Positions 26,273 to 30,432 of a stretch of 64,000 nt of DNA are shown one piece after another. Source of the stretch: Leptospirillum ferrooxidans C2-3 (GTDB lineage: Bacteria > Nitrospirota > Leptospirillia > Leptospirillales > Leptospirillaceae); NCBI RefSeq assembly GCF_000284315.1, contig NC_017094.1:775486-839485 (forward strand), given 5' to 3'. The position numbers were made by a program, and so were the translations under genes. How positions within the stretch are numbered: the stretch's first letter is position 1; the number at the start of each line of letters is the position of its first letter. Under the pieces are notes generated by a model that searched no databases, was not told the origin of the DNA, and worked only from the letters and a program-made list of their open reading frames with translations.

Positions 26273-26473
26273 TTAATGGCACATTACAAAGCTGAACGCA
26301 TGACGGACAGGGTGAATAGCATCATGGATCATTGGAAGAGGTGCAAACAATAGCAAGTAAAGGGTTATTGGCACCCATACACCAAGTAAACCTGCTACAA
26401 GAACTTTTACCCAAAGACTGCTGTCTGCCTTTGCTCCGGTAACATTCCCCCAAACTGCCTGTTCATTCTTCAA
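26273..26473 (-). CDS. CbtB-like small membrane protein (cobalt transport family)
   Basis: 66 residues from TTG 26473 (AAAGGGA 5 nt upstream): one transmembrane helix (LVAGLLGVWVPITLYLLLF) and a His-rich end, HDAIHPVRHAFSFVMCH. That tail matches the CbtB family pattern HDxxHxxRHxxxxxCH, proposed metal ligands in a cobalt uptake system with CbtA. Longer frames upstream overlap the glutaredoxin gene and a palindrome, so I reject them. No cbtA is adjacent, so the role is inferred only. Confidence 0.55.
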   Translation of the reverse strand: MKNEQAVWGNVTGAKADSSLWVKVLVAGLLGVWVPITLYLLLFAPLPMIHDAIHPVRHAFSFVMCH

Positions 26474-26491
26474 TGCAATCCCTTTCAACAA

Positions 26492-26515
26492 GAAGCCCAT
26501 CAATTGATGGGCTTC
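26492..26515. promoter_or_regulatory. Perfect 24-bp palindrome between glutaredoxin and cbtB-like genes
   Basis: GAAGCCCATCAA is followed immediately by its exact reverse complement. A 12-bp stem without loop could act as terminator (CCAGTTTTT follows on the plus strand) or be a dimeric regulator site. It lies 56 nt after the glutaredoxin stop and 19 nt before the preferred cbtB-like start. Confidence 0.45.
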
Positions 26516-26570
26516 CCAGTTTTTACCAACGATCCCCCAGCCGCGTTTCGTGCAACATGGAGAACTTGTT

Positions 26571-26888
26571 TTAATGGCTTTCACACCCTCTATCAAGAGG
26601 AGTATTGTCGCTGGTTTCAACCGCTTTTACGAGGTGGTTGGAGAGAAGATATGCCTCTACCTCTTCACCGCTGACATCCGCAAGTACTTTACCGTTGACT
26701 TCAACTGTGGGAGACATGCGTTGTCCGGACTTCCTGACCATCTCCGAATAGGCCATGGGATCGGCAAGGATGTTGATATCTTCAAATTCAATATTATATT
26801 TTCTAAAAACTGCCCTGACTCCACCACTCCAGCCACATGTTGGTTTCAGATAAGCTTTTACCGTCAATTTTTCTGTTTGGGTTTCCAT
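26571..26888 (-). CDS. Glutaredoxin family protein
   Basis: 105 residues with thioredoxin-fold glutaredoxin pattern: KAYLKPTCGWSGGVRAVF (active-site Cys in CGWS, a monothiol-like C-x-x-S), a cis-Pro region RMSPTVEVNGKVLADV and C-terminal helix. AAAGGAGG precedes ATG 26888. The CGWS site differs from the CPYC or CGFS of classical glutaredoxins, so redox versus Fe-S transfer role is unclear. Confidence 0.8.
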   Translation of the reverse strand: METQTEKLTVKAYLKPTCGWSGGVRAVFRKYNIEFEDINILADPMAYSEMVRKSGQRMSPTVEVNGKVLADVSGEEVEAYLLSNHLVKAVETSDNTPLDRGCESH

Positions 26889-27047: not shown

Positions 27048-27941
27048 TTACGGCCTGGCGTTTGCTTCAAGATAGGCTTCCAGTGGATAAGGGGATACGT
27101 TCAGGACTGTTACCAAATGATTTTCTTTGGCAACATTGTCCGACAGCGCCATGCGGATCATCTCCCGTGTCAGAAAAGGGGTTGGAAGCAGTTTTTCCTG
27201 AAAAAAGGCCGATATCGCAAGCATGGACGGTGGCTGGGACATAATCAACGCATTTACTTTTAAAGATGACTTGATGGTTTCCATCAACTCCCTATAAGTA
27301 TAGATTCTTGGACCACCAATTTCGAGAATGGTTGGCTTGATGGTTCTATCTGTGTTCAGTTTCGAAAGGGAGGTGACCAAATCCCCCACCCAAATGGGGT
27401 GGACAAGATTTTTTCCGGATCCGATCAGGGGAAGAATATGTAAGCCTCTAGCCAATCCCGCAAACAAATTGATGAATTTGTCGCGTCTCCCAAACACAAC
27501 GCTTGGTCGGACAATTGAAACATCCAGTCCAGAAGAAAGGATTTCATCTTCCATAACCGCTTTTGTTTTATGATATCGTGATTGCGCACTATGAGAGGCA
27601 CCTATTGCGGATACAGCAATAATTGTTTTTACGCCTGCCATCTTGGCTGCTTTCAGCATGGATCGGGTTCCCTGAACATGGACTTTTTCATAAGTCTGTG
27701 TGCGGGTTTCGGCCAAGATTCCGGTCAGGTGAAAAATGGTGTCGACTCCGGCCATGGCGGAGACAAGATCCGAATATGAGGATACATCTCCTGTATAGGA
27801 CTCAACGCCATCAGGAAGTTTTGAGGTTGGCCCTTTTCTGGAAAATAGACGTATTGTCCCGTTAAAACGATCCGTCTTGAGCTGTTCCATGAGTGCCTGT
27901 CCAATAAACCCGGTTCCGCCTGTCAGTAATGCTGTGTGCAT
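27048..27941 (-). CDS. NAD(P)-dependent epimerase, NDUFA9-like SDR
   Basis: 297 residues. LLTGGTGFIGQALMEQL is the Rossmann NAD(P) site; IIAVSAIGA and the YHKTKAVME box correspond to the SDR active region. The overall pattern fits the atypical SDR group near NDUFA9, proteins that often bind quinone or NADPH without a known reaction. ATG 27941 follows GGAGGGC and starts immediately after the stop of the NifS-like gene, so it is the third gene of one operon. Confidence 0.82.
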   Translation of the reverse strand: MHTALLTGGTGFIGQALMEQLKTDRFNGTIRLFSRKGPTSKLPDGVESYTGDVSSYSDLVSAMAGVDTIFHLTGILAETRTQTYEKVHVQGTRSMLKAAKMAGVKTIIAVSAIGASHSAQSRYHKTKAVMEDEILSSGLDVSIVRPSVVFGRRDKFINLFAGLARGLHILPLIGSGKNLVHPIWVGDLVTSLSKLNTDRTIKPTILEIGGPRIYTYRELMETIKSSLKVNALIMSQPPSMLAISAFFQEKLLPTPFLTREMIRMALSDNVAKENHLVTVLNVSPYPLEAYLEANARP

Positions 27942-27942
27942 A

Positions 27943-29136
27943 TTAAGCCCTCCGAAAACGTTGCAAGCCCTTCGGTGACAATGCCATGAGTTCCTCAAGT
28001 ACAGCAGGAAAAGCTTCCTGAAACAATTTCATATCTGATGGAGTTGAATTCCACGAGAGAGATACAACGACTGATCCTTGTCCTAAAAGTGAAGAAACAC
28101 CCAATGCTCTCAGAACATGAGACACTTTAAGGGATTGGGAAGAGCAAGATGAACCAGTGCCCGTCTGAATGCCCTTGAGATCAAGTTTTGAGACTGCTGC
28201 CTGACCGTCGATTCCAGGAACAAGCATGTTCAGTATTCCGGGAAGACGAGGCTCATCAGAAGCAGGGATCACAACATCGGGAATTGTATCCTTGACCCAT
28301 TGAAGGAGATCATTTGTCAGAGTCTCAATCCTTCTTCTTTCCTGATCAACATGTTCATTCCAGTGTTGAATGGCTTTTTTCCAACCTTCGGCGAGAAACA
28401 CAGGGATCATTCCTCCACGGCGCCCACCTTCCTGGGACCCCCCAAAGATCAATGGCTTGATACGAATTCCTTTTCGAACATATAGGGCAGAAATACCGGG
28501 AGGGCCACCCATCGCATTCGATGAGATTGTCATCATATCGATAGGAAAATCCTTGACCTTGATCCGTTGGGTTCGTTGAGCAGTGACAAAATCAACGTGG
28601 AAAACTCCTCCCCCTGCCTTTACCTCTTTTCCAATTCTTTCAACCGGAGTGATAACACCAACCTCAGGATCAGCCCAGACAAATGAGGATAGTGTCCGTT
28701 CAAGTTTATTCAAACTGAGAGATGTGATCGATTCATATATTTTGGGCCGCAGTTCCTGAAACGGAATGTGATCTCTTTTAGCTCTTGATGACATGGCATT
28801 AATGGCAGATATGTGATTGGTTTGCCCACCCACAAGTCCTTCAAAGGAGAGTGAGGTTCCTAGGTCGGCACACATGATTGCCCAAGTGTTGGACTCTGAT
28901 GCATTTGATGTAAAGAAAATTTCGGAAGTATCGGCTCCAATCATTTTCGCCACTTCTTCGCGGCACGATTCAAGGCATTGGGCATAATACCGGGCTGAAG
29001 CATACCGGGCGTCAGGATTTGCAAGAGATGAAAGGCTGTTTGAGATCGCTTCCTGGACGCCAGGACGAAGGGGAGTCAGACTATCTCCGTCGAGGTGGGT
29101 TACTGATGGAGTATTCTGGATTCTGTTATCAGTCAA
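27943..29136 (-). CDS. Class-V aminotransferase (NifS/cysteine desulfurase-like) lacking the PLP lysine
   Basis: About 397 residues, the length and order of NifS/IscS proteins: TSNASESNTWAI, WADPEVGVITPVERIGKEVK, FHVDFVTAQRT (PLP Asp), ALYVRKG, and a C-terminal GTGSSCSSQSL with the persulfide-type Cys, then SHVLRALG. At the place of the usual SAHK motif it has SSNA (Ala codon 28515-28513), so the Schiff-base lysine and the preceding His are replaced. A normal desulfurase reaction is then unlikely. The start is probably TTG 29136 (GAGGAG 5 nt upstream), less likely GTG 29142; it overlaps the DUF3501 gene. Confidence 0.8.
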   Translation of the reverse strand: MTDNRIQNTPSVTHLDGDSLTPLRPGVQEAISNSLSSLANPDARYASARYYAQCLESCREEVAKMIGADTSEIFFTSNASESNTWAIMCADLGTSLSFEGLVGGQTNHISAINAMSSRAKRDHIPFQELRPKIYESITSLSLNKLERTLSSFVWADPEVGVITPVERIGKEVKAGGGVFHVDFVTAQRTQRIKVKDFPIDMMTISSNAMGGPPGISALYVRKGIRIKPLIFGGSQEGGRRGGMIPVFLAEGWKKAIQHWNEHVDQERRRIETLTNDLLQWVKDTIPDVVIPASDEPRLPGILNMLVPGIDGQAAVSKLDLKGIQTGTGSSCSSQSLKVSHVLRALGVSSLLGQGSVVVSLSWNSTPSDMKLFQEAFPAVLEELMALSPKGLQRFRRA

Positions 29137-29716
29137 GGTCACTCCTCAAGCTTGAAAGAAGTGGAAGAGGGAGTTGGACCATCGCTGAATAGGCTGGGTG
29201 GTCTGCTAATAGAAAAGCCTTTTCATCCTCTTTCATGTTTTTGAGTAAAGATGCCCCTGTATTTCCCAAAGGAAATCGAATGTAGTGGACGGAACTCATT
29301 TTTGAGTCTTCGGAACGATCTGACTCGAAAATGGCACTGATCTTTCCGGAAGGAAAAACCAGATGAATCGATGGCTGGCGATCGATTCCCCGAAGTCTGT
29401 CAAGCGTTTCCCGAACCTTGTCTTCGCTCGTAATCTCAATGAACAATACTGCACTAAGCTCATTTTTAGCGGGTAAAAGCTCATTGTATGTATCGATCTC
29501 TTCTTGTACTTTTTGGGGGTCACTGATGCCTTCTACCAGAAGCATTTCTTGAATCTGGAAAAGAACCGTATCATGGTTTTCAAAAACGATGCGCAATAAA
29601 GGCCCCAGATTGATGGATCGATCTTTTTTGATCGAAATAATTCTTTTTCTGGCTTCTGCACGTTGATCACTATAAATATTGTTTGGCAGAATCTCTGTTG
29701 CGGATACTTTCTTCAT
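29129..29716 (-). CDS. DUF3501 family protein
   Basis: 195 residues. It begins with the DUF3501 pattern (ATEILPNNIYSDQRAEARKR) and contains FENHDTVLFQIQEMLLVEGI and a YNELLPAKNELSAVLFIEI block. No biochemical role is established; such genes occur with rubrerythrin or Fe-S proteins and have been associated with oxidative stress by context. ATG 29716 (AGGAAG upstream) is preferred to the longer open frame. First gene of the operon with the NifS-like and SDR genes. Confidence 0.85.
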   Translation of the reverse strand: MKKVSATEILPNNIYSDQRAEARKRIISIKKDRSINLGPLLRIVFENHDTVLFQIQEMLLVEGISDPQKVQEEIDTYNELLPAKNELSAVLFIEITSEDKVRETLDRLRGIDRQPSIHLVFPSGKISAIFESDRSEDSKMSSVHYIRFPLGNTGASLLKNMKEDEKAFLLADHPAYSAMVQLPLPLLSSLRSDLD

Positions 29717-29964: not shown

Positions 29965-30432
29965 ATGTTGACGCCTTCCTCGCCATTTTATTTACCAGAT
30001 GAGGTTATTCTTGATCTTCTGGACTCATCCAGGACTATTGCCGTTGTGGGGATCAGCGATAAGCTTGGAAGACCATCCCTTACAGTCGCAAGCTACCTTA
30101 AGGATCATGGCTATGATGTCTGGCCGGTCAATCCCCTATTGAAGGAAGTTGGCCATGTGGCTTGCTATCCGGATCTTTTTTCATTGCCAGGTGTTCCTGA
30201 CATGGTTGTTGTTTTTCGAAAATCTGCTGATATTCCGGATGTCATCGATGAAGCTGCCAGAGCCAAGGTTACCAGAGTATGGGTTCAGGAAGGAATCAAG
30301 AGCCCGGAAGGATGGGCAAAAGCAAAATCCTCTGGTTTATCCATCGCGATGGATGTCTGTATCATGAAGGAATACATGCGATTGAAGAGTTCAGGGTCAA
30401 ATGTCTGCAATCTCATTAATAAAGGGAACTGA
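29965..30432 (+). CDS. CoA-binding domain protein (YccU-like)
   Basis: 155 residues, a single Rossmann CoA_binding domain: RTIAVVGISDKLGRPSLTVA, GYDVWPVNPLLKEV, the VVVFRKSADIPDVIDEA segment and VWVQEGIKS. Family members bind CoA; no reaction is known. AGGAGTTTATA precedes ATG 29965. It is convergent with arsB. Confidence 0.9.
   Translation: MLTPSSPFYLPDEVILDLLDSSRTIAVVGISDKLGRPSLTVASYLKDHGYDVWPVNPLLKEVGHVACYPDLFSLPGVPDMVVVFRKSADIPDVIDEAARAKVTRVWVQEGIKSPEGWAKAKSSGLSIAMDVCIMKEYMRLKSSGSNVCNLINKGN

Follow-up and report, generated by a model that had tools for sequence, protein, structure and literature searches.

The window, a stretch of 64,000 nucleotides from the iron-oxidising bacterium Leptospirillum ferrooxidans C2-3, encodes a NifS/IscS-like class-V protein in which the PLP lysine is missing and the loop cysteine is kept. 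The best explanation for this protein, to which we would give roughly even chances of being right, is that it is a paralogue of NifS/IscS which has ceased to be a PLP-dependent desulfurase, and whose cysteine and protein surfaces have been preserved for use as a thiol-only scaffold or sulfur relay. Judging from its sequence, it is very unlikely to perform the normal desulfurase reaction, because the PLP lysine and Arg354 (E. coli IscS numbering) have both been lost.

The gene (27943..29142, minus strand) starts with GTG and encodes 399 amino acids. Pfam Aminotran_5 (PF00266) covers residues 17–368 with 116 bits, which indicates a full-length class-V aminotransferase fold. The NifS model TIGR03402 matches residues 17–390 with 229 bits, far below its cut-off of 530.75 bits, and the curated IscS model scores 169 bits, also below its cut-off of 643. 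When the protein is aligned to E. coli IscS, the SxHK block is found to be replaced by S207-S208-N209-A210, with the codon for Ala210, at the position of PLP-Lys206, at 28513..28515 (minus strand). This bears out a sequence-only reading of the window, which had reported an alanine codon at 28515-28513 in an SSNA block instead of SAHK, and had noted that the PLP aspartate and the cysteine were retained. Both residues are indeed present in all 18 orthologous sequences: Asp184, within FHVDFV (28591..28593), corresponds to the PLP-ring Asp180, and Cys333, within GSSCSSQ (28144..28146), to the persulfide Cys328. The ring-stacking His104 is likewise kept throughout, as His110 (28813..28815), and the Ser203 position is retained and invariant. 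(All of these codons, and the two that follow, are on the minus strand.) The conserved Arg354 is replaced by Val359 (28066..28068) and Arg359 by Trp364 (28051..28053), in 18/18 sequences in each case; further changes in the window protein are His205 to Asn209, Asn155 to Pro and Gln183 to Thr. The protein thus resembles the NifS/IscS desulfurases in its full-length homology and in the four residues Asp180, His104, Ser203 and Cys328, but differs from them in lacking the PLP lysine and Arg354 and in falling below the family cut-off.

Is the loss of the lysine a peculiarity of this one gene? Family f1 comprises 21 genomes, including the window genome (a single 2.56 Mb contig), and 17 of them have a full-length orthologue, giving 18 sequences. 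The PLP-Lys column holds Ala, Ser, Arg or Val, and Lys in none of the 18, so that a sequencing error or an isolated mutation, which an intact SAHK in close relatives would have indicated, is ruled out: the lysine was lost clade-wide, while the cysteine is strictly conserved. The column before the lysine site holds Asn, Ala, Gly, Ser, Pro or Thr, so that nothing specific has taken over from the catalytic pair. The cysteine loop, GTG[SA]SCS..SL.V, is unchanged in the f1 proteins, and there are 69 invariant columns in the 18 sequences, which include Cys333, Asp184, His110, Val359 and Trp364. Pairwise pN/pS values are 0.18–0.28; for the same genome pair, pN/pS is 0.26 for the NifS-like gene and 0.03 for the IscS gene of the ISC operon. 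The NifS-like genes therefore evolve faster than ISC IscS, yet under purifying selection, and these values, together with the synteny described below, rule out a pseudogene. Among 246 genomes sampled from the phylum, the clade is restricted to f1, with scores of 236 bits or more for its members and 201 for the best outsider. A genome-wide pattern scan returned one locus, matching G002.

The gene lies in a conserved cluster on the minus strand. Directly downstream is a gene for an NDUFA9-like NAD(P)-binding SDR (27048..27941), a constant neighbour in f1 by synteny, whose best PDB matches are NDUFA9 and related NAD-dependent epimerases. Then follow genes for a glutaredoxin-like protein (26571..26888; PF00462), with a CGWS motif in 12/12 loci, and for a CbtB-like small membrane protein (26273..26620; PF09489) in a conserved position, the true start of which is probably downstream of the listed ORF start. 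A divergent gene for a CoA-binding-domain protein (29965..30432, plus strand; PF13380) is a conserved upstream neighbour. Where the flanks of an f1 locus are long enough to judge, the order NifS-like–SDR–glutaredoxin–CbtB, with the divergent CoA-binding gene, is almost always found. The glutaredoxin (in the 26273-26888 region of the window) has a conserved ADVSGEEVExYL stretch besides CGWS, and the adjoining CbtB-like product ends in HPVRHAFSxxMCH; this pair is present in all f1 loci with enough flank. In genus g3, a LigB/DODA-type dioxygenase gene sits between the SDR and glutaredoxin genes (L034:3026-3796, with equivalents in L035-L040).

Between the CoA-binding gene and the NifS-like gene, the window has a gene for a 195-aa DUF3501 protein (29129..29716, minus strand; PF12007, 209 bits), with its ATG at 29716. 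Phmmer matches it to 3fjv (E 4.5e-23), and the predicted structure (pLDDT 72) matched 3fjv alone, a protein whose own function is unknown. The sequence-only reading had described the DUF3501, NifS-like and SDR genes as overlapping. DUF3501 does overlap the NifS-like start by 14 nt, but the best SDR start is the ATG at 27941, 1 nt past the NifS-like stop, so that there is no overlap at that junction. DUF3501 is immediately upstream of the NifS-like gene in 6/6 f1 genomes that have it, and is missing in 11/17 genomes with the NifS-like gene, where the SDR, CGWS glutaredoxin and CbtB genes are retained. This rules out DUF3501 as an obligate partner; it is a dispensable neighbour, an accessory that can be lost. 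Of the 246 genomes sampled, a further 80 outside f1 have DUF3501. It belongs to a rubrerythrin-DUF3501-RFO cluster that was described in 2016 and is related to oxidative stress (PMC5114695). The window shares DUF3501 with that cluster, and in four related genomes (G003, G005, G006 and G007) the Fe-S oxidoreductase RFO is adjacent, upstream of DUF3501. In the window, on the other hand, neither RFO nor rubrerythrin is adjacent, and the locus has four additional genes, for the NifS-like protein, the SDR, the glutaredoxin and CbtB. RFO has been lost in the window genus and the rubrerythrin of the window genome is elsewhere (G000:C1:445452); in genus g3, where 11 genomes carry the NifS-like gene, RFO and DUF3501 are both absent at the locus.

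The closest known proteins are archaeal. In the PDB, the window protein is matched best by structures of Archaeoglobus fulgidus IscS2, 4eb5 among the top ones, and these structures (4eb5, 4eb7 and 4hvk) combine, as the window protein does, an IscS fold and a retained loop cysteine with replacement of the lysine; they also have Asn at the His205 site, a lost Arg354 and a replaced Gln183. (A further A. fulgidus IscS2 entry, 4r5f, has a lysine at the site.) A. fulgidus IscS has Asp for Lys and no desulfurase activity, and its cysteine is a ligand to the [2Fe-2S] cluster on IscU (PMC7585200). Methanosarcina acetivorans IscS1, also of the IscS fold and with its PLP lysine replaced, is grouped with A. 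fulgidus IscS2 as closest known. These archaeal proteins are paired with IscU, whereas the window clade is found without IscU and with SDR, glutaredoxin and CbtB; the window clade has in addition lost Arg359 (to Trp), and has GGP[PAS]G instead of YGPKG. A search of open-access papers found nothing relevant on a Lys-less IscS from bacteria, or on TusA together with IscS in the Nitrospirota. Proteins of this kind are thus known from archaea; what the literature searched does not contain is the bacterial lineage, the gene setting or the further losses. The suggestion that the locus is an undescribed sulfur or Fe-S module accordingly holds for the combination of genes, but not for the protein as a type.

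Lys-less IscS-like proteins of other Nitrospirota (of the AHQFYGPKG and SAQPFYGPKG types) also resemble the window protein in having lost Arg354 and kept Cys328, with Lys replaced by Gln, Leu, Ile, Glu, Arg, Pro or Ser. They differ in their setting, usually IscR-TusA-IscS-IscU operons or with TusA following them. In a tree from all columns, one branch (SH-aLRT 90.8) separated the f1 NifS-like proteins, together with the other Lys-less proteins and A. fulgidus IscS2, from the rest, which agreed with the f1 proteins simply descending from the Lys-less IscS found elsewhere in the Nitrospirota. The support for this origin is gone when the active-site columns are removed: the other Lys-less Nitrospirota sequences, 25 in number, still group (98/94), and the f1 clade, on a long branch, falls outside them (AU p 0.046; 0.077 with A. 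fulgidus). Judging from these alignments, the protein may represent one old lineage or a repeated loss of the lysine, both being compatible with the trees.

How would such a protein work? Since its best PDB match, A. fulgidus IscS2, is Lys-less and inactive and uses its cysteine as a ligand, the window protein is taken to be a thiol-only scaffold or relay. Cys333 would hold a persulfide that it receives from another protein or, by analogy with A. fulgidus IscS, ligate a nascent [2Fe-2S] cluster. The most plausible partner for exchange of the cargo would be the CGWS glutaredoxin of the same gene cluster, and the SDR and (where present) RFO/DUF3501 would supply redox functions, both roles being suggested by gene order. 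In favour of this reading are a lysine site that never holds Lys, the retention of Cys328 and the change of Arg354 to Val in 18/18 sequences, the purifying selection, the conserved cluster with CGWS in 12/12 glutaredoxins, the inactivity of E. coli IscS with the K206A substitution (PMC9978102), and the occurrence in other Nitrospirota of Lys-less IscS-like genes beside TusA and IscU. Two observations count against it. Neither IscU nor TusA is in the cluster: no IscU was found next to the NifS-like gene in any flanked f1 locus, and no TusA in the cluster at the f1 loci. Furthermore, Asp180 and His104, known to hold PLP, are still invariant. In addition, because the f1 clade is not placed with the Lys-less IscS once the active-site columns are left out, a mechanism shared by descent is unproven. 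A carrier, scaffold or regulator acting with DUF3501 had been proposed from the sequence; a role other than desulfurase is still the most economical reading, but not the tie to DUF3501, which most of the genomes with the gene lack.

The invariant PLP-binding positions raise the question of whether PLP or PMP might be bound non-covalently and support a different or weak reaction, with a lysine possibly provided by a partner or from elsewhere in the chain. Other PLP folds work with His in place of Lys, as in the ColD dehydratase, and Ser203 is invariant along with Asp180 and His104. Moreover, E. coli IscS K206A, which has the same substitution as the window protein, is inactive and yet has not lost all of its PLP, which absorbs at 430 nm (PMC9978102). 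However, Arg354 and Arg359 have been lost and the His205 and Gln183 positions replaced, and with a variable residue at the lysine site there is no sign of a new residue dedicated to catalysis. (The R354K variant of E. coli IscS keeps its activity (PMC9978102), so what counts at this site seems to be the charge, not the particular residue.) We consider non-covalent PLP chemistry quite unlikely. The protein might alternatively be a PLP-free structural or regulatory subunit, in which Cys333 acts as a redox switch that signals oxidative stress to the SDR, the glutaredoxin or RFO and carries no sulfur. The mixture of redox genes in the cluster (SDR, glutaredoxin, RFO) would fit such a role, as would the membership of DUF3501 and RFO in the oxidative-stress rubrerythrin cluster (PMC5114695), but it is the entire persulfide loop that is conserved, cysteine included, as expected for the handling of sulfur or clusters; a switch of this sort is unlikely, though not implausible.

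A strict sulfur carrier is a special case of the thiol-only scaffold or relay: Cys333 would be loaded with persulfide by a rhodanese, a TusA-like protein or a true desulfurase, and would pass it on without ligating a cluster. There are three TusA-family genes in the window genome, and elsewhere in the phylum TusA adjoins Lys-less IscS-like genes, but the f1 cluster itself is without TusA, and this narrower version seems distinctly improbable. As for a decaying paralogue without function, the fast evolution relative to ISC IscS is what such a gene would display; the preservation of an intact gene in 17 genomes, under purifying selection, with its invariant columns and gene order, leaves very little room for it. 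Of the readings considered, the thiol-only scaffold or relay is the one that we prefer.

The NifS-like protein is not the only one of its kind in these genomes. The ISC operon of f1 has the order IscR-IscS-IscU-HscB-HscA, and its IscS in the window genome (L027:1945-3159; G000:C1:1896944-1898158) reads NAHLIYGPKG and has no PLP lysine either. In all f1 genomes examined, this IscS has Leu for Lys, Asn for Asp180, Ile or Gly for His104 and Tyr for Gln183, and keeps Arg354 and the Cys328 of the cysteine loop. It groups with E. coli IscS, so the lysine was lost separately from the loss in the NifS-like protein. A single intact NifS with the lysine is encoded in the window genome, in a neighbourhood that we read as a nif cluster. 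A second Lys-bearing desulfurase homologue (AGHKFYAPKG) is interrupted there by a frameshift (L029:1631-2711; G000:C1:1271630-1272710), and genus g3 has intact homologues. A family search in ten f1 genomes found no Lys-bearing NifS, IscS or SufS in G006 (99% complete) or G004 (95%); these two hold only the two Lys-less proteins, a Lys-bearing aminotransferase without the cysteine loop (GSQKALMLPPG) and distant matches. With IscS and the NifS-like protein of f1 both Lys-less, some members are apparently left without a canonical cysteine desulfurase. In Leptospirillum sp. CF-1, desulfurase activity in extracts has been credited to IscS as the sole desulfurase (PMC9628965), which conflicts with the Lys-less ISC IscS in every f1 member examined; a search of the text of that paper found no mention of the lysine or of PLP.

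It is possible, though we hold this only tentatively, that the IscS/NifS-fold proteins used for Fe-S cluster assembly in f1, and in many other Nitrospirota, are not PLP desulfurases, in which case ISC IscS and the NifS-like protein would both be thiol-only scaffolds or relays, fed by, for example, TusA-type carriers, and some members would do without a canonical desulfurase. The window protein and its orthologues carry the idea of a PLP-less IscS beyond a few archaea, to bacteria of a family that inhabits acid mine drainage and to a new gene setting, and the source of sulfur for Fe-S clusters in f1 bacteria becomes a concrete, testable question. Many Lys-less IscS-like proteins were found in other Nitrospirota, mostly with Gln at the site, Arg354 also lost and Cys328 kept; they were collected by similarity to the window protein, so that their share is not a census. 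Pfam confirmed TusA next to these genes.

Operons of the order IscR–TusA-like–IscS (Gln or Glu for Lys)–IscU occur in several Nitrospirota families (L169:3821-6081, L171:4066-6367, L172:4198-6475, L173:4205-6591, L200:2240-4485, L201:106-2558 and L041:4567-7095). This arrangement suggests that sulfur is brought by TusA rather than made by IscS. Lys-less IscS-like genes of another type, with SAQPFYGPKG or a similar sequence and with GSSCS.DAL, are followed directly by TusA, often with an overlap (L194:3904-5319, L195:4355-5766, L196:4155-5572, L166:3785-5199 and L193:5733-7194). In two other Nitrospirota families (G182 and G156; L165:2023-5980 and L193:5733-10334), a different Lys-less IscS-like gene adjoins RBR-RFO-DUF3501 in convergent orientation, which means that the association of a Lys-less IscS-like gene with DUF3501 is not unique to f1, though rare.
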